Part shown: positions 12,589 through 32,349 of the stretch, piece after piece
Position numbering within the stretch: position 1 is the first letter of the stretch
How the letters are laid out: each line of letters starts with the position of its first letter
NCBI RefSeq assembly: GCF_021568775.1
Contig: NZ_JAKGSG010000021.1
Coordinates: 1 to 64,000, forward strand
Direction: 5' to 3'
Source: Antribacter soli
GTDB lineage: Bacteria; Actinomycetota; Actinomycetes; Actinomycetales; Cellulomonadaceae
Length of the DNA stretch: 64,000 nt
Notes under the pieces: generated by a model
Seen by the model: the letters and a program-made list of their open reading frames with translations, nothing else
Told to the model about the DNA's origin: nothing
The model's database searches: none
Program-made: the position numbers and the translations under genes

Positions 12589-13782
12589 ATGTACGTGTCG
12601 CACCTCTCTCTGCTCGACTTCCGGTCGTACCCGGCCGTCGACGTCGAGCTCGAGCCCGGGGTGAACGCCTTCCTCGGCCCGAACGGGCAGGGAAAGACGA
12701 ACCTCGTCGAGGCGATCGGGTACGTGGCGACGCTCGGCTCGCACCGGGTAGCGACCGACACTCCGCTCATCCGGGCCGGCGCCGACCGGGCCGTGGTGCG
12801 TACCCGGATCGTCCGGGGCGACCGCGCAAGCACCGTCGAGGTCGAGATCACGCCCGGGAAGGCCAACCGCGCCAGGATCAACCGGGGGCAGCCCGTCCGC
12901 TCGCGGGACGTCCTCGGGATCCTGCGGACGGTGCTCTTCGCGCCCGAGGACCTCGCCCTCGTCAAGGGCGACCCGGACGGCCGCCGCCGCTTCCTCGACC
13001 AGCTCCTCGTGCTCATGGTTCCCCGTGTGGCGGGAGTCCTGTCGGACTACGACCGCGTGCTGCGGCAGCGGTCCGCGCTGCTCAAGTCTGCGCGAACGAT
13101 CCGTCGGGGGGCGCGGACCGCGCCGTCCACAGGGAGCGCATCGCCCGAGGTGGCGACGCTGGAGGTGTGGGACGCCCGGCTCGCCGAGCTCGGCGCGGAG
13201 ATCCTCTCGCTGCGCCTGCAGCTCGTCACGGCGCTCCGACCGGCAGTCGCGGCCGCGTACGAACAGGTGAGCGCGGCGGTCGGGGCCGCCGAGATCGGCT
13301 ACCGCTGGTCGCTCGCAGGCGACGTGCCCCGGGAGGTTCCTGGTCTCGCGGAGCTGCGCGAGGCACTGCTGAAAGGGATCGCCGAGGCACGGTCGCAGGA
13401 GCTCGAGCGCGGCGTGAGCCTGGTCGGGCCGCACCGGGACGACCTCGTGCTCACGCTGGCCGGCCTGCCTGCGAAGGGCTACGCCAGCCACGGGGAGTCG
13501 TGGTCCTTCGCCCTGGCGCTACGGCTCGCCTCGTACCGGCTGCTCGGCGGAGGAGAGACGGGGCCCGCATTCTGGAACCCGGACCTCGGCGTCGACGCCG
13601 ATCCGGTACTGATCCTCGACGACGTCTTCGCCGAGCTTGACGTCCGCCGCAGGGAGCGGCTCGCCGAGCTGGTCGCGCCCGCGCGGCAGGTCCTCGTCAC
13701 GGCCGCGGTGCCCGACGACGTGCCGGCCGCCCTCCAGGGTGCTCGGTTCCACGTGGAACCAGGGAAGGTGACCCGTGCCTGA
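12589..13782 (+). CDS. recF: DNA replication and repair protein RecF
   Basis: RecF is an SMC-like ATPase that helps load RecA at single-strand gaps. The 397-residue product has the Walker A motif GPNGQGKTN near residue 30, the signature LVGPHRDDL near 278 and Walker [12 protein letters not shown] near 341. The ATG at 12589 was preferred to the start at 12544 because [14 protein letters not shown] is the family N-terminus. The ribosome-binding site is weak. Its stop overlaps the dciA start by eight bases. Confidence 0.95.
13746..13759. promoter_or_regulatory. parS-like palindrome at the recF end
   Basis: GTTCCACGTGGAAC differs from the parS consensus by one symmetric substitution in each half and keeps full dyad symmetry. 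It sits in the recF 3' end, on the opposite side of oriC from the five perfect sites. Whether ParB binds it is not known. Confidence 0.4.
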
Positions 13783-14368
13783 GGTGAACGAACCGCTCGA
13801 GCCGAGCTCCGGCGTCGGGCAGCCGCGCGATGCGGGTACCGGTGCGGGCGCCGATTCCGGGGGCGACGCACCCCTGACGCCTGCCTCCGAGGTGGCGCGT
13901 GCCGCGCTCAACCGGGCCAAGGCGGCCGCGCGGGCCAGGGGCCTGCGGCCCGGCTCGTCCGCACGACGCTCTCCCCTGGCCGAGCCACGCAAGGAGCGCA
14001 CCGGGCCCGGGGCGCGCGATCCGCAGCTCGTGTCCGACGTGCTGGGCCGCCTCCTGCGCGAGAAGGGGTGGACCGAGGACGTCTCCGTCGGTGGCGTGAT
14101 CGGACGGTGGCGCGACGTGGTGGGGCCGGACGTGGCCGAGCACTGCACTCCCGAGACGTTCGAGGACAAGGTGCTCCTGGTGCGCGCCGACTCGACGGCC
14201 TGGGCCACCCAGCTCCGGCTGCTCGTCCCGACGCTGCTGCGCCGCATGGCCGAGGAGATCGGCGAGGGGGTCGTGGAGGAGGTGACGGTCCTCGGTCCGG
14301 CGGGTCCAGGGTTCCGCCGGGGGCCACGGGCCGTTCGTGGGCCCGGGCCGCGGGACACCTGGGGCTGA
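13775..14368 (+). CDS. dciA: DUF721 / DciA-family helicase-associated protein
   Basis: DUF721 proteins (DciA) assist loading or function of the replicative helicase DnaB in bacteria lacking DnaC. The 197-residue product has an N-terminal disordered Ala/Arg-rich half and the DUF721 core from about residue 88: [14 protein letters not shown], then [15 protein letters not shown] and [17 protein letters not shown]. The GTG start lies eight bases inside recF with AGGGAAGG ahead, indicating translational coupling. In most relatives gyrB follows directly; here three surface-protein genes intervene. Confidence 0.9.
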
Positions 14369-14381
14369 ACGGACGCGAGAA

Positions 14382-14410
14382 GGGCGGACACCCCGGTGGG
14401 GTGCCCGCCC
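14382..14410. terminator. Bidirectional terminator between dciA and surface gene 1
   Basis: A 13-bp stem with one mismatch (arms 14382-14394 and 14398-14410) lies in the convergent gap. TCCTTC follows on the plus strand. Confidence 0.7.
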
Positions 14411-14442: not shown

Positions 14443-15387
14443 TCAGTCGCGCGCGACGAGCCGCCGGCGGTACCAGAGCAGGCCGGTCCCCAGCGCGAGC
14501 AGGAGAGCCGTCGCGCCAACAGCTGTGCCCACGGTGGCGCCCGTCTCGGGCAGCACCTCGGTGCTGTCGGCGGCGGCCGACGGGCTCTGGCTGGTCGACG
14601 AGACCGGGTTGGCGACCGGCGTCGCGGCCGGGACCGTCGCGTCCGTGCCGCAGGGGTTGGTGATCGGCGCGTCCTCGAAGAAGGTGGCGTAGTACCGCCG
14701 AATCCCGTCGGCTCCCAGGTACCCGGCCGAGAAGTGGAGATCGACGTCGGCCACCCGCACCTGGGGGTTGTCGCGGCTCGAGTAGGTGCCGTCCGCATTC
14801 ACGACGATATCCGGCCAGTGGTAGAGGCCGGACAGCGGATAGTCGTGGCCGGACCCGGAGGCAAGGACCTCCCACCCAGCGCGGTCACCCTCCCAGGAGA
14901 TCAAGGCGATGTCATCGCGCGTGGCACCCTCCGGCCGTGCGATCTCATACTTCAGGTGAGGTGTGCCGTCCACGCAGACGGGCTCGTACGAGAGAACCGT
15001 CAGACCGCACCGGGGAGCGACAAGCTGTTCGATGCCGAGCTCAGCGGTGTGGCCGGTGAGGAACCCGCCCTGTCGCGGGTCTTCGTCGGGCGTGTGCCGG
15101 TACCTGCCGAACGACCCTCCCGACCCGAAGGTGTAGCCGGGCATCGTCCGGGCGACGAGGTACCTGCCGTCGAACGTGTAGTCGATCGCCTCGGTGTCCT
15201 CGGGGACGACGACGTCCTCGATCGTGGCGTCGCAGTCGGTGATCTGCCCGGGGTCGGCCGGCACCACGAGCTCGGGCGCTGCAGGCGAGGAGGGCGGGGC
15301 GACGTCGGCTGCGGCGGGCATCGCGGCAACGGTCAGTCCGCCCAGGGCGAGCGCGGTCGTCGCCACGCTCGCAAGAATCTTGTGCAT
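14443..15387 (-). CDS. Sortase-anchored surface protein 1 (LPETG signal)
   Basis: This is a 314-residue secreted protein. A signal peptide (residues 1-28, ending AMPAAADVAP) is followed by an extracellular part of about 230 residues and a Ser/Thr/Ala-rich spacer. A cell-wall sorting signal closes it: LPETG at about 279-283, a hydrophobic helix, and the basic tail YRRRLVARD. It shares with its two neighbours a motif of the form Cys-Asp ... DVVVPEDTEAIDY, followed by an aromatic-rich strand segment. AGGA lies five bases before the ATG at 15387. I know no named family for the extracellular part. It is transcribed against the replication fork. Confidence 0.85.
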   Translation of the reverse strand: MHKILASVATTALALGGLTVAAMPAAADVAPPSSPAAPELVVPADPGQITDCDATIEDVVVPEDTEAIDYTFDGRYLVARTMPGYTFGSGGSFGRYRHTPDEDPRQGGFLTGHTAELGIEQLVAPRCGLTVLSYEPVCVDGTPHLKYEIARPEGATRDDIALISWEGDRAGWEVLASGSGHDYPLSGLYHWPDIVVNADGTYSSRDNPQVRVADVDLHFSAGYLGADGIRRYYATFFEDAPITNPCGTDATVPAATPVANPVSSTSQSPSAAADSTEVLPETGATVGTAVGATALLLALGTGLLWYRRRLVARD

Positions 15388-15534
15388 GGAATTCCTAGCA
15401 GAGGACGCACGGGACCGTGCGCACAAGGGATGTTTGAGCCGTATTGAACCAGTCCGGCGAGGCCCCTCCTGACCACCTTCCGGTCTTTCACCCCCTGTGT
15501 GGTGCGTCCGGCCGGGGTGCGCGCGGCGGGAACG

Positions 15535-15570
15535 ACGGAGGGCTCCCCGCCATGGCGGGGAGCCCTCCGT
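15535..15570. terminator. Terminator after surface gene 2
   Basis: A perfect 17-bp stem (15535-15551 with 15554-15570) with a two-base centre lies 19 bases past the stop of the leftward gene. There is no long T-tract. Confidence 0.75.
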
Positions 15571-15588
15571 GAGACCGGGGCGGTCAGA

Positions 15589-16464
15589 TCAGCCGTTGTT
15601 GTGGATCCGCTTCCGGGCCCAGACCAGGCCGAAGCCGCCGGCGACGAGCAGCAGCGCGAACAGGATCGCGCCGCCCACCTGGGCGCCCGTCGAGGCGAGG
15701 ATCGGGGGCGTGCCGGCGACCGGCGCCGGCGAGGCGGAAGCCGAGGGCGTCGGCGTGACCGACGGTGACGGCGTGGGCTCGGCGGACGGCGTCGGGGTCG
15801 GCGTGGGCGTCGTCACCGGAGTGGGAGCCGCCTCGGTGGGCGTCGGGGTCGGGGTCGGCGTCGGCTCGGTCTCGCACTCCTGGGCCTCCAGGAGCTCCGC
15901 GAGTGCGGCGGCCGGGTAGGTCGCGGTCGTCGTCGACTGCTGCGTGTACGGGCCGAGGTCGCCCCAGGCGAAGCCGCGGCTCAGCGTCGCGAGGATGCCC
16001 GCGGCGTCCTTCGTGTAGGTGATCGACTCGGTGTCCTCAGGCTTGGCGATCTCGTCGACCGAGGTGATGTCGCAGTTGACGGTCGGTGCGGCCGGCGACA
16101 CCGGCGTCGTCGTCGGCGTGCAGTCCTCGAGCGGGCCACCCCTGAGGGTCCGGTCGAACTGGTTGCCGTCGGTGGCGTCGATCGCGACGGACCAGGACTT
16201 CACGGACGCCGGGTCGATGCCGTGCCCGGCCCACTCGTACGTCTCGTGGAAGCTGCGGGCGAACGTCGTCGCCTCGAGCTCCTTGCCGTCGACGACGACC
16301 GTCACGGAGTTGCGGCCGTTCGAGTAGGCCGTGAGGTCGACCGTCAGACCGGTGCAGTCGGCCTTGGCAACGGGCGTGTGAGCAGAGGCCGGTGTCGCGG
16401 TGGCGACCAGCCCTCCGAGAGCGAGCGCCATGAGGGCACCGCCCGCCAGGATCTTCTTCATCAT
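15589..16464 (-). CDS. Sortase-anchored surface protein 2 (LASTG signal)
   Basis: This is a 291-residue secreted protein. A signal peptide with the Ala-x-Ala end TPASAHT covers residues 1-28. An extracellular part contains the motif shared with its neighbours (CDITSVDEIAKPEDTESITY), and a Thr-Pro/Ser-Pro spacer follows. The sorting signal is LASTG, a membrane helix, then ARKRIHNNG. LAxTG is the motif preferred by class E sortases, and such an enzyme is encoded at 31483-32349. GAAGGA precedes tandem ATGs at 16464 and 16461. The first extracellular segment differs from that of its neighbours. Function unknown. Confidence 0.85.
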   Translation of the reverse strand: MMKKILAGGALMALALGGLVATATPASAHTPVAKADCTGLTVDLTAYSNGRNSVTVVVDGKELEATTFARSFHETYEWAGHGIDPASVKSWSVAIDATDGNQFDRTLRGGPLEDCTPTTTPVSPAAPTVNCDITSVDEIAKPEDTESITYTKDAAGILATLSRGFAWGDLGPYTQQSTTTATYPAAALAELLEAQECETEPTPTPTPTPTEAAPTPVTTPTPTPTPSAEPTPSPSVTPTPSASASPAPVAGTPPILASTGAQVGGAILFALLLVAGGFGLVWARKRIHNNG

Positions 16465-16612
16465 CGGATTCCTTCGCGGTAGCGAGAGTGCGCAACTTTC
16501 GAGATGCACAGTCGGGTGGCGCCTGGTATTAGACCAGAAATCGGCAGATGGGCGAAATGCCCATCTTTGAGTGGGGATACCCAGGTCTCCGTGAGCAGCG
16601 GACATGACTGAG

Positions 16613-16637
16613 GCGGGCACCCACGAAGGGTGCCCGC
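16613..16637. terminator. Terminator after surface gene 3
   Basis: A 10-bp stem (GCGGGCACCC with GGGTGCCCGC, five-base loop) begins 15 bases beyond the stop codon of the leftward gene that ends at 16653. Confidence 0.65.
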
Positions 16638-16652
16638 CCCGGTTGTCCGGCG

Positions 16653-17765
16653 TCAGCGGTGCGCGGTCAGCGGGCGATCACGCCGTCCTGCCGACCACCT
16701 CTCCTTCCGGGGCCGACAAGCGCCGAAGGCGGGCGCCCCGTGGGGGTACCCGCCTTCGGCGCTTGTCGGCCCCGAGGCCAACCGGCCAGGCGGGCGCCCG
16801 AACCCCCCGCGGGAGCTCAGGAGGGCCAGGCCGGCGGCGACGAGCAGTCCGGCCAGGACGGACGCGCCGGTGACGGTGGCCCCGGTCTCCGCGAGCATCG
16901 GGATCGTCGGGGTTGCAGCGGCGGCCGGGGTTGCGGCGGTCGGGGTCGCGGCGGCGGCCGTCGGCGCATCTCCGCAGGCCGGCGTCAACGCCGGCATGCT
17001 CAGTGCCGTGACCACGTCGTAGTAGCCGAAGTAGTTGCCGGCGGTCGAGCGCGGAGTCCACGGCAGCTTGCTGCTGACCTCGCCGTACCACCCGAACGAG
17101 TAGCCGGAGCTGGCTGTCGCAACAAGGTTGCTCCCGTCGAGGCGGTAGCTGATCGCCTCGGTGTCCTTCGGGAGCGGCACGTCCTCCGGTCCGGCATCGC
17201 AGGCGGTGATCGGGTACTGGACACCGGCGGGAAGCTCGGGAGACACGACGACGTCGAGCGGCGCGGGCGGCCCGCAGGGGTTGTCGAGCGGCGGCTCCTC
17301 CACGGTGACCTCGATCTGTGTGAACCCGTCGTCCTCGCGCGCGGTGTTCGCCGAGAAGTACAGGTCGATGTCGTCGACAGGGATCCCGTACTCACGCATC
17401 ACCCAGCCGTCACCCTGCGGGGCCAGGTCGAACCAAGGAAGGCGGCCCGTGAACGCCCCCATGTAGACGCCGTGCGCCTCGCCGACGGGCTGGCCCTGGT
17501 AGGAGTACTTCCAGGTCGCGGTAGCAAGGCTGGTCTCCGCGTCGGGGTGGGGCTCGATGACGTAATCGAGGAAGGCCTCGCCGTTGTCGCAGACGGCGGT
17601 GAGGGAGATGGGGTTGAGGCCGGTCGGTACCGCCGCGTCCGCAGTCGTCGCGGCGTCGGAGACGGGGTCGAGGGACTCCGTCTCGTCGGCGATCGCCGCG
17701 GTCGGGGTGAGGATGAGGCCGGCGGTCAGCGCGGCAGCCGCGGCGCGCACCAGGTTCTTGGGCAT
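16653..17765 (-). CDS. Sortase-anchored surface protein 3 (LAETG signal) with extended tail
   Basis: This is a 370-residue secreted protein with a signal peptide (residues 1-27, ending PTAAIADE). Two extracellular parts follow; the second carries the shared motif CDAGPEDVPLPKDTEAISY and the aromatic segment seen in surface protein 1. An Ala/Thr/Pro spacer leads to the signal LAETG and a hydrophobic helix. Unlike its neighbours it continues for about 55 residues past the helix, through a 25-bp inverted repeat (16709-16773), instead of ending after a short basic tail. None of the three frames has a stop before that repeat, so the original stop was probably lost. The ATG at 17765 begins the signal peptide. 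Function unknown. Confidence 0.8.
   Translation of the reverse strand: MPKNLVRAAAAALTAGLILTPTAAIADETESLDPVSDAATTADAAVPTGLNPISLTAVCDNGEAFLDYVIEPHPDAETSLATATWKYSYQGQPVGEAHGVYMGAFTGRLPWFDLAPQGDGWVMREYGIPVDDIDLYFSANTAREDDGFTQIEVTVEEPPLDNPCGPPAPLDVVVSPELPAGVQYPITACDAGPEDVPLPKDTEAISYRLDGSNLVATASSGYSFGWYGEVSSKLPWTPRSTAGNYFGYYDVVTALSMPALTPACGDAPTAAAATPTAATPAAAATPTIPMLAETGATVTGASVLAGLLVAAGLALLSSRGGFGRPPGRLASGPTSAEGGYPHGAPAFGACRPRKERWSAGRRDRPLTAHR
16709..16773. repeat. 25-bp perfect inverted repeat inside surface gene 3
   Basis: Arms 16709-16733 and 16749-16773 are perfectly complementary around a 15-base loop. It resembles a former terminator now read as coding sequence, because the surface gene 3 frame continues through it. 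Confidence 0.85.
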
Positions 17766-18167
17766 GGGACCTCTTCGGAGAGACGGGCGACCAGGAGGTC
17801 GCCGAGGCGGTGAGGGGTGAGGGTCGCAAGGCGGAGATTTCCCGATATGCGCCCTCATACCGACCCCACGAACTGCTTCCTGGAAACGTTGTGGCGCTCT
17901 TCCGAGAACGTCGACGCACCGCCCTGTCACCCCTGTGGAAGAACCTTGTGGAGAACTGTCCACAGGAGCCGGTGAGATCCCTGGTTTCCGGCCCCCAGAA
18001 GGTAGACTGAGCAGGTCAACCGCGCCGGGTTCCGCCCGGAACGCTGAGCACCGACCAGCCGCCGACGAGCGTGGCTGCCGCCAGTCTTTTTTCACCCGGG
18101 TCCGGCCCAGCCGTCACCTGTGGGGCGTGCTCGTCGTGTGCCTGAAAGACGAGGAGTACCACAGCCC
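17766..18167. promoter_or_regulatory. Divergent region between surface gene 3 and gyrB
   Basis: This 402-base gene-free interval must hold the gyrB promoter and the leftward surface-gene promoter. A DnaA-like box (CTGTCCACA, 17956-17964) and the palindromic half-sites CCTGTGGAA and CTTGTGGAG lie just left of TAGACT (about 18003), a possible gyrB -10 hexamer. No open frame with credible codon bias was seen. Confidence 0.5.
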
Positions 18168-20258
18168 GTGACAGAGCGAATCGACGGCGGCTACGACGCC
18201 GGGAACATCACCGTCCTGGAAGGCCTCGAGGCCGTCCGCAAGCGCCCGGGGATGTACATCGGATCAACCGGCGAACGCGGACTCCACCATCTCGTGACCG
18301 AGATTGTGGATAACTCTGTGGACGAGGCTCTGGCGGGCCACGCAGACACGATCGACGTGACGCTGCTGGCGGACGGTGGCGTGCGCGTGCAGGACAACGG
18401 CCGCGGCATCCCGGTGGCCATGCACCCGACGGAGGGGCGTCCGACGCTCGAGGTCGTCATGACGATCCTGCACGCCGGTGGAAAGTTCGGCGGTGGCGGC
18501 TACGCCGTCTCGGGCGGCCTGCACGGCGTCGGCATGTCGGTCGTGAACGCCCTGAGCACGCGGTTCGTCTCCGACGTGAAGCGCGACGGCTACCGGTGGC
18601 GCCAGGAGTACGCGGACGGCGGCAACCCGGTCACGGAGGTCGAGCGCCTCGCGGCGCTGGGTCCGGACGAGCACACCGGCACCACCCAGACGTTCTGGGC
18701 GGACGGCTCGATCTTCGAGACCACGGAGTACGACTTCGAAACCCTGCGGTCGCGCTTCCAGCAGTACGCGTTCCTCAACAAGGGCCTGCGAATCACCCTG
18801 ACGGACGAGCGCGAGGGCCACGCTGACCTCGAGGACGAGGTCACCGGCGCGGTGCCGCAGATCACGCCCGAGATGCTCGCCGCGGCGGCCGAGGGCGCCC
18901 AGCCGGGCGACGCCCCGGCAGTCAGCGGGCTGGATGTCGAGCGAGCGGCGTCGGGCCGAAGCGTGAGCTACCGGTACGACGGCGGCCTCACCGACTACGT
19001 GAAGCACCTCAACTCGGCGAAGAAGGTCGAGCTGGTGAACCCCGAGGTCATCGACTTCGAGTCGGAGGACACCGAACGGCGCATCAGCGTCGAGATCGCG
19101 ATGCAGTGGACGAGCGCGTACAGCGAGTCCGTCCACACCTTCGCGAACACCATCTCCACCCCCGAGGGCGGCACGCACGAGGAGGGCTTCCGCGCGGCAC
19201 TGACGACGCTGGTCAACAGCTACGCCCGCGAGAAGGGCATCATCAAGGAGAAAGAGGAGAACCTCACGGGTGACGACATCCGCGAGGGTCTCACCGCGGT
19301 CCTGAGCATCAAGCTCGGCGAGCCGCAGTTCGAGGGCCAGACCAAGACGAAGCTGGGCAACACCGAGGCCAAGACGTTCGTGCAGCGGGTCGTGCGCGAG
19401 CGGCTGACCGACTGGTTCGACGCGCACCCCGCCGAGGCGCGGGACATCATCCGCAAGGCGATCCAGGCCTCCCAGGCCCGCATCGCGGCGCGCAAGGCAC
19501 GTGAGGCGACGCGTCGCAAGGGCATCCTCAACAGCGGCGGCATGCCGGGCAAGCTGCGCGACTGCCAGTCCAACCGGCCCGAGGAGTGCGAGGTCTACAT
19601 CGTCGAGGGCGACTCCGCCGGCGGTTCGGCCGTCCGCGGCCGCAACCCGCACACGCAGGCGATCCTCCCGATCCGCGGCAAGATCCTCAACGTCGAGCGG
19701 GCACGCCTGGACAAGGCCCTCTCGAACCAGGAGGTCCAGTCGATCATCACGGCCTTCGGCACGGGAATCGGCGAGGACTTCGACATCTCGAAGCTGCGGT
19801 ACCACAAGATCGTGCTGATGGCCGACGCCGACGTGGACGGCCAGCACATCGCGACGCTGCTGCTCACGCTGCTTTTCCGGTACATGCGCCCGCTCATCGA
19901 GCACGGCCACGTGTACCTGGCGCAGCCGCCGCTGTACCGCCTGAAGTGGTCGAACGCCCCGCACGACTACGTGTACTCCGACCGGGAGCGTGACGCCTTC
20001 CTGGCGGCCGGCGCGGCCGCGGGCAAGCGGATCCCGAAGGAGAACGGCATCCAGCGCTACAAGGGCCTCGGCGAGATGGACTACACCGAGCTGTGGGACA
20101 CCACCATGGACCCCGAGCACCGGACGTTGCTGCAGGTCACGATGGATGACGCGGCCGCAGCGGACGAGATCTTCTCGGTGCTCATGGGCGAGGACGTGGA
20201 GTCCCGCCGCAGCTTCATCCAGCGCAACGCCAAGGACGTGCGGTTCCTGGACATCTAG
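18168..20258 (+). CDS. gyrB: DNA gyrase subunit B
   Basis: GyrB is the ATPase subunit of gyrase, which introduces negative supercoils. The 696-residue product has the GHKL ATP site ([33 protein letters not shown]), the transducer domain and the TOPRIM metal site (EGDSAGG near residue 481, DADVDG near 553). GTG 18168 was chosen because GAGGAG lies 11 bases upstream and [19 protein letters not shown] fits the family start. The frame opens further at 18120. A perfect DnaA box (TGTGGATAA, 18305-18313) falls in the NSVDEAL codons. gyrA follows after 110 bases. Confidence 0.97.
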
Positions 20259-30721: not shown

Positions 30722-31486
30722 ATGACGGAGACGGGCACGCTCGAGGCCGCCCCGGTGCGCCGGGGGCTGCGGTCGTCGATCACGGTCGGTGCGGTCCTCG
30801 CGGCGGCGGGGTTGATCTTCTCGATGAGCGCACAGCTCGCGGGCGGGGAGGATGCTCGACAGCCGCAGGACCTGGTGTCGCTCGCCGACGCCGAGACACG
30901 GCGCGTCGCCGAGCTGTCCGAGCAGGTCGAGGCGCTGACAGCACAGATCGGCGCGCTGGACGACCCGGTCGGGACCGTTATCCCTTCGCGCGACGCCCTG
31001 CTCGCCGCGCGCGAGGGCGTCGTGTCCGGCTCGGTGGCCGTGTCCGGCCCGGGCCTGACGGTGTCGCTCGACGACGCACCGCCGTCGTCGGTCTCGGTCG
31101 CGGGTGCCCAGGCGGACGACCTGGTGGTGCACCAGCAGGACCTGCAGGACGTGATCAACGCCTTGTGGGCCGGGGGCGCGGAGGCGATGACGCTCCAGGG
31201 CGAGCGCGTGACCGCGACGTCGGCCTTCCGGTGCTCGGGGAACATCCTCCTGCTGCACGGCAAGGTCTTCTCTCCCCCGTACGTCGTGACCGCGGTCGGC
31301 GACCCGGATCGGCTCAGTGCCGCGCTCGACCGCTCGCCTGGGGTGCAGACCTACCTCGACTACGTCGACTGGGTGAACCTCGGCTGGTCCGTCCATCGTC
31401 ACGAGCAGGTCGAGCTGCCCGCCTTCACGGGCGGCAGCGGTCTGCGCCACGCTCGCGTACCCGAGGGAACGGACGTCTTCTCGTGA
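30722..31486 (+). CDS. DUF881 family membrane-anchored protein
   Basis: This 254-residue protein has an N-terminal helix (RSSITVGAVLAAAGLIFSMSAQLA), a short coiled coil (ETRRVAELSEQVEALTAQIGAL) and the DUF881 domain with GPGLTVSLDDAP and DLQDVINALWAGGAEAMTLQGERV. The family is typically found near division genes in Gram-positives; its role is unknown. ATG 30722 was chosen over 30689. The stop overlaps the sortase GTG (GTGA), suggesting coupled translation. Confidence 0.88.
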   Translation: MTETGTLEAAPVRRGLRSSITVGAVLAAAGLIFSMSAQLAGGEDARQPQDLVSLADAETRRVAELSEQVEALTAQIGALDDPVGTVIPSRDALLAAREGVVSGSVAVSGPGLTVSLDDAPPSSVSVAGAQADDLVVHQQDLQDVINALWAGGAEAMTLQGERVTATSAFRCSGNILLLHGKVFSPPYVVTAVGDPDRLSAALDRSPGVQTYLDYVDWVNLGWSVHRHEQVELPAFTGGSGLRHARVPEGTDVFS

Positions 31487-32349
31487 CCCTGCGCCAGTCG
31501 TCACCCGCGCCGGGCGGGGCAAGCTCGGGCCGTGGCCCGGAACCCGTGTGGCCGGGTCCGCAGCATGCGGGTGCCCGACGTCGGTCGCCCACCGCGGGCG
31601 GCGTCGTCGCCGCGGTCGTCGGCGTCGTGGGCGAGCTGCTCGTCACGGCCGGCGTGCTGCTCGGCCTGTTCGTCGTCTGGCAGCTCTGGTGGACCGACGT
31701 GGAGGGTGACCGCCACCAGCAGGAGATCATCGCGGGTCTCGACTGGACGCCACCACCGGCGCCGGCCGAGTCGGCCGGGCCGAGCGTGGCGACCCGGCAC
31801 GAGGAAGCGCCTCCGGTCGACGCCCAGCCCGCCGAAGCGACCGTGTTCGCCCAGCTCTACGTGCCGCGCTGGGGCGCGGACTACGTGAAGCCGGTCGCCG
31901 AGGGCACCGACAAGCCGACGGTGCTCGACACGATCGGCATCGGCCACTACCCGGACACCGCGATGCCGGGCGACGTCGGCAACTTCGCGACGGCCGCCCA
32001 CCGCACGACCTACGGCAAGCCGTACAACCGGATCGCGGAGCTGCAGCCGGGCGATCCCGTCGTGGTGCGGACGGAGACCACCTGGTACGTGTACCGCGTG
32101 ACCGAGTCGAAGATCGTCGCGCCGACGCAGGTCGAGGTGGTGGCCCCGGTACCCGGCCTGCGCGCGGGCGACCCCCTGCCCGAGCTGACGGAGCGATACC
32201 TCACGATGACGTCCTGCCACCCGATGTACTCCGCGAGGGAGCGGTACATCGTCCACGGGACGCTGGACTACTGGGCGCCGGTGAGCGAGGGCACGCCGCA
32301 GGAGCTGCTCGACGCCGGAATCACGTTCGACGCGGCGGGGGTGGAGTGA
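31483..32349 (+). CDS. srtE: Class E sortase
   Basis: This membrane-bound cysteine transpeptidase cleaves LAxTG-type sorting signals and links proteins to the wall. The 288-residue product has an N-terminal membrane helix (about residues 40-65) and the sortase barrel, with His173 in AAHRTTYG, Cys245 in TMTSCHP, and Arg252/Arg254 in SARERY. The TMTSCHPMYSARERY stretch matches the class E TLTTC pattern. The GTG start is four bases inside the DUF881 stop region, and a 54-residue membrane protein follows with a TGATG overlap. Likely substrates include the LASTG and LAETG proteins at 15.6-17.8 kb. Confidence 0.93.
   Translation: MTLRQSSPAPGGASSGRGPEPVWPGPQHAGARRRSPTAGGVVAAVVGVVGELLVTAGVLLGLFVVWQLWWTDVEGDRHQQEIIAGLDWTPPPAPAESAGPSVATRHEEAPPVDAQPAEATVFAQLYVPRWGADYVKPVAEGTDKPTVLDTIGIGHYPDTAMPGDVGNFATAAHRTTYGKPYNRIAELQPGDPVVVRTETTWYVYRVTESKIVAPTQVEVVAPVPGLRAGDPLPELTERYLTMTSCHPMYSARERYIVHGTLDYWAPVSEGTPQELLDAGITFDAAGVE

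Follow-up and report, generated by a model that had tools for sequence, protein, structure and literature searches.

The genes lying between dciA and gyrB in this genome raise the question of what kind of proteins they encode, how these would be held at the cell surface, and how three of them came to occupy the same gap. In the window, the 64,000-nucleotide stretch of Antribacter soli DNA that was analysed, open reading frames are present for three leftward genes, here called A, B and C:

13775–14368, plus strand: dciA, the left border, found as an orthologue in 215 of 222 genomes from the family
14443–15387, minus strand: gene A, encoding a signal peptide followed by the shared block, an FnIII-like VC module and LPETG
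15589–16464, minus strand: gene B, with a signal peptide, an Ig-like N1 module, the shared block, a Pro/Thr-rich linker and LASTG
16653–17765, minus strand: gene C, with a signal peptide, a VC module, the shared block, LAETG and an unusually long tail
18162–20258, plus strand: gyrB, the right border (start at about 18162)

The probable starts are at 15387 for A, 16464 or 16461 for B and 17765 for C, with a signal peptide beginning at each. Judging from the position of dnaA and dnaN and the direction of the genes, all three would run head-on to replication, as an earlier, sequence-only reading of this DNA had proposed.

Three modules are recognised in the encoded proteins, each with conserved cysteines near its ends: the Ig-like N1, the FnIII-like VC and a Cys-bounded block of ∼80 residues that is common to A, B and C.

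15004–15267, minus strand: shared block in A
15868–16107, minus strand: shared block in B
16971–17246, minus strand: shared block in C
14644–15003, minus strand: VC module in A, an FnIII-like sandwich (the profile match, 14644–15273, spans both modules)
17250–17627, minus strand: VC module in C, matching residues 127–255 of A (E 1.1e-6)
16114–16383, minus strand: N1 module in B, an Ig-like sandwich, from an alignment

A profile search recovers the block in A, B and C at E 7e-24, 7e-25 and 3.5e-18 respectively, values that are circular in that the family profile was built with these three sequences included; a blind genome search with A as query, which is free of this circularity, agrees, with E-values of 1.7e-8 for C and 3e-4 for B. 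The modules are arranged as block-VC in A, as VC-block, the reverse, in C, and as N1-block-Pro/Thr linker in B. The earlier claim that the extracellular parts differ outside the block is thus only partly right, A and C having a second module in common in swapped order.

The AlphaFold model of B is confident (pLDDT 93) and that of A fair (pLDDT 84). Alignment of the models with VIA-align gives a Z-score of about 8 for N1 against Ig domains and of about 7 for VC against FnIII domains. The shared block was modelled inside both the A and the B constructs, and the structure-search matches are all to Ig/FnIII modules. Such folds, as predicted here, are common arrangements and are uninformative on the ligand. 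Pfam and NCBIfam scans place A, B and C in no known family beyond their anchor motifs and find no adhesive domain in them. Searches by sequence against solved structures give no match for block plus VC, and for N1 only matches at chance level (E 0.45 or worse).

Data from the same genome suggest where the modules come from. Long LPVTG proteins at two contig ends (C74 and C14) are tandem repeat arrays, and the profile of their repeat aligns with that of the shared block with an hhalign probability of 95%. These LPVTG repeat proteins match PF18998 (Flg_new_2, the divergent InlB B-repeat domain) above its cut-off. The shared block, unlike that domain, is a more divergent single copy, and none of its direct Pfam matches is significant (best 0.13). 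We conclude that the block is, as judged by profile comparison, a divergent single copy of the LPVTG-protein repeat and homologous to it; through these repeats it would be weakly linked to InlB B-repeats. The LPVTG proteins are broken at both contig ends, and their InlB-like repeats are very similar between the two. The VC module also occurs in further families of this order, frequently within proteins of >1000 residues. Since the LPVTG repeat is akin to the block and VC is widespread in the order, the modules are of a commonplace kind.

The state of the dciA–gyrB gap in relatives was followed by computing its length from the positions of the two genes in 110 family genomes, among the matches listed, a sample in which distant genera are under-represented. 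The gap has two states: it is either short, at 212–501 bp in these genomes and about 180–500 bp in the family more widely, or 1.3–5.2 kb with a leftward gene of the same kind. In the long state this gene carries the block, except in five genomes of the Promicromonospora group; where these blockless genes were read directly, they consist of N1 alone. The gap is occupied in both genomes of the window's genus, in every genome of four further genera (13/13, 4/4, 16/16 and 1/1), in 7 of 17 of the Isoptericola group, in 1 of 6 of a Xylanimonas-like genus and in none of the other genera. The taxa concerned are Antribacter, Promicromonospora and Myceligenerans, filled in all that were sampled, Cellulosimicrobium, filled in nearly all records, Isoptericola/Krasilnikoviella, filled in some, and Oerskovia flava, where the surface gene leaves about 3 kb of the 5.2-kb gap to other sequence. 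On a GyrB+DciA tree of 79 rows, from which O. flava was left out, the occupied and empty states need four changes. The record named Cellulosimicrobium cellulans DE0111, with an empty gap, groups with Cellulomonas on this tree, and that named Sphaerisporangium cinnabarinum ATCC 31213 groups with Cellulosimicrobium, which suggests that both records are mislabelled.

The distribution indicates that a single gene of this kind has long had its place in the gap in this subclade. B is the probable orthologue of the relatives' resident gene there. The sequence-only reading holds in that the gap is empty in most of the family. Its description of the cluster as lineage-specific at this position does not, since most members of the subclade around it have one such gene in this gap; because of this occupancy, what it had named as telling against its proposal, presence at this site in most relatives, is in part what is found.

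All three proteins begin with a signal peptide and carry, at the C terminus, an LxxTG motif with a hydrophobic stretch and a basic tail, which supports the earlier reading of them as sortase-anchored surface proteins. A sorting-signal profile matches LPETG of A at E 3e-15, LASTG of B at 5e-20 and LAETG of C at 2.5e-14. In C, basic residues follow the membrane helix and are themselves followed by an abnormal tail: the frame (16653–16840, minus strand) runs about 50 residues beyond the helix and, without interruption, across an inverted repeat. C appears to have lost the short basic tail that is usual, and its odd tail may weaken its sorting signal.

The window encodes one candidate for the anchoring enzyme:

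31165–32349, plus strand: class E sortase open reading frame, with its domain at 31855–32265 and its true start uncertain

This sortase passes NF033747 with 258 bits against a cut-off of 160, has PDB matches to 5utt and to SrtE1 (5cuw), and is the only PF04203 match found in the genome, which is 99.8% complete. It has a TMTSC active site of the TLTxC type and, in the alignment, a GHY motif whose Tyr, about 17 residues before the catalytic His, is kept in all ten relatives aligned; by position rather than structure, this residue may be equated with Tyr229 of SrtE1, the conserved Tyr of the β3/β4 loop. The presence of Ala at P3 in B and C fits the proposed match between LAxTG signals and a class E enzyme. 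A has LPETG instead, which differs from the preferred class E motif and counts against the explanation favoured below. SrtE1 of S. coelicolor is, however, reported to accept Ala or Pro at P3 (PMC5148588), and a single class E sortase handling both LPxTG and LAxTG would agree with that range. Because the genome has further sorting-signal proteins of both kinds (LPVTG on C66, C74 and C14, and LANTG on C46), one class E enzyme presumably serves both. The only sortase found being of class E, with none of class C, and the best pilin match having an E-value of 0.61, we find no sortase-assembled pilin.

The sequence-only reading had pointed to this sortase 14 kb away; a class E enzyme is indeed encoded there, at about 31.2–32.3 kb, but not as a dedicated partner. 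A sortase lies roughly 10–25 kb from gyrB in many of the 24 genomes compared, including two in which the gap is empty (G041 and G021), and the enzyme stays near gyrB in Isoptericola genomes with an empty gap. Because of this proximity also where the gap is empty, it is best regarded as an enzyme that belongs to the region in general. Isoptericola/Krasilnikoviella have another class E-like sortase lineage (HRRTHGNSF), whose genes lie away from gyrB, and in Krasilnikoviella flava a sortase of this type is the only PF04203 match found. The idea that the sorting motif tracks the sortase type was rejected: the LPxTG genes of Isoptericola/Krasilnikoviella co-occur with the different class E copy, yet Oerskovia, with that same copy, has LAATG, so that there is no strict link.

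Each of the three genes has its own strong GC hairpin at its 3′ side, and sequence boxes are found upstream of A and B:

14382–14410: GC hairpin between dciA and A, from an RNA fold
15535–15570: GC hairpin downstream of B, from an RNA fold
16607–16643: GC hairpin downstream of C, terminator-like, with no U tract
16708–16774: inverted repeat with 32-bp arms, 94% complementary, in the 3′-terminal part of the reading frame of C
16524–16536, minus strand: box TGGTCTAATACCA, resembling a promoter or operator, ahead of B; comparable boxes precede the relatives' genes
15440–15451, minus strand: similar sequence TGGTTCAATACG upstream of A, read directly from the sequence

The inverted repeat within C folds as RNA at −76 kcal/mol (z −9.5); it was rejected as a dispersed repeat, the genome having no other full copy. 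Antribacter and Cellulosimicrobium both have the box TGGTCTAATACCA, or TGSTCTAAT, about 60–95 nt before the start, and variants of it are seen in Myceligenerans and Promicromonospora. As a regulon operator it was rejected, with a single site in the window.

That A, B and C are adjacent, on the same strand and with the block in common had led to their description as tandem paralogues, and A and C do group together weakly in the first block tree (84/58). Recent tandem duplication within this lineage, with diversification as an adhesin family, is nevertheless unlikely. Both block trees join B to its A. gilvus orthologue (100/100), and the first places it with Myceligenerans (97/92), while its wider grouping is not settled by the larger tree. 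The second group, in which A and C are placed, also includes the other A. gilvus gene, a MAG, second Cellulosimicrobium copies from elsewhere in the genome and stand-alone Promicromonospora proteins; A and C have opposite module orders and relatives outside the genus. Both modules of C are joined to a stand-alone Promicromonospora protein with LAATG (98/83 for the block, 97/85 for VC) and the VC module of A to an A. gilvus gene (92/87), although long branches make the finer placement of A and C unsure. In other genomes this second subfamily lies mostly outside the gap. Since B sits with the resident gene of Promicromonospora and Myceligenerans and A and C with the other subfamily, we conclude that the three are probably not recent local duplicates; A and C, members of a second, probably older subfamily, accompany the resident B there. 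The suggestion of diversification fares better, with evidence of both fast divergence and turnover: between the two Antribacter genomes, identity is 68–71% in the block of B and 52% in its N1 module, as compared with 87% in GyrB and 85% in DciA.

We think it quite unlikely that A, B and C are instead decaying fragments of a longer protein, even though relatives do have all the modules in one protein. The single N1-mid-block-VC gap gene of Cellulosimicrobium and Isoptericola, found in this analysis and absent from the papers searched, resembles the present locus in site, strand and modules and differs from it in encoding one longer protein rather than three short ones. Signs of decay are also seen: in A. 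gilvus a frame change interrupts the B orthologue, leaving its N1 and block parts in different frames (a pseudogene or a sequencing error), and the A-type neighbour lacks a sorting signal, its end consisting of HPEHPGHPGH repeats; the tail of C is abnormal. Against this, A, B and C each begin at a start of their own and have separate signal peptides, sorting signals and hairpins, and Promicromonospora and Myceligenerans already carry a short N1-block form. The occupied gap is found mainly in genera generally known for mycelial growth. In mycelial actinobacteria, class E substrates such as chaplins or Actinoplanes CwpA/CwpB have developmental roles (PMC13251363). Like these substrates (Streptomyces long chaplins; Actinoplanes SspA, CwpA and CwpB), A, B and C have an LxxTG-type signal, a class E sortase and expected display on the wall; they differ in their extracellular modules, which are Ig-like, FnIII-like and repeat-like, and in that one of the three signals is LPETG. 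A role as developmental wall proteins in hyphal growth is very unlikely, however: a Pfam scan up to E 1 gives no chaplin match, and the extracellular parts are Ig/FnIII-like. A plasmid origin was rejected, with no match to A.

In the reading that we prefer, with a probability of about 0.78, A, B and C would be Sec-exported, sortase-anchored modular wall proteins at an old gap site, built of small Cys-bounded beta modules (the Ig-like N1, the FnIII-like VC and the InlB-repeat-like shared block). The one class E sortase of the genome would link them to peptidoglycan, and the resident B would share the gap in this genome with A and C of the second subfamily. Export, anchoring, disulfide formation and wall display are what we infer from these features. 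Fibrillar adhesins with Ig/FnIII stalks are similar in carrying short beta modules on a sortase anchor; they are unlike A, B and C, which have only two modules and no recognised adhesive domain. Surface decoration or adhesion is the most likely role, as far as sequence can indicate. The locus is a locally expanded instance of an existing surface-protein locus, not a new system.

Here N1, the block and VC represent module families that neither Pfam nor NCBIfam names, and the locus offers a simple case of one class E sortase expected to act on LAxTG and LPxTG substrates alike. Because the gap falls cleanly into two states and the family is well sampled, gains, losses and permutations of wall proteins can be traced there. 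It is possible, if doubtful, that the gap is a preferred exchange site for surface-protein modules near oriC, subject to gain, loss, permutation and breakage while the flanking replication genes stay intact. If so, wall proteins would be diversified from a constant high-dosage site, always head-on to replication.
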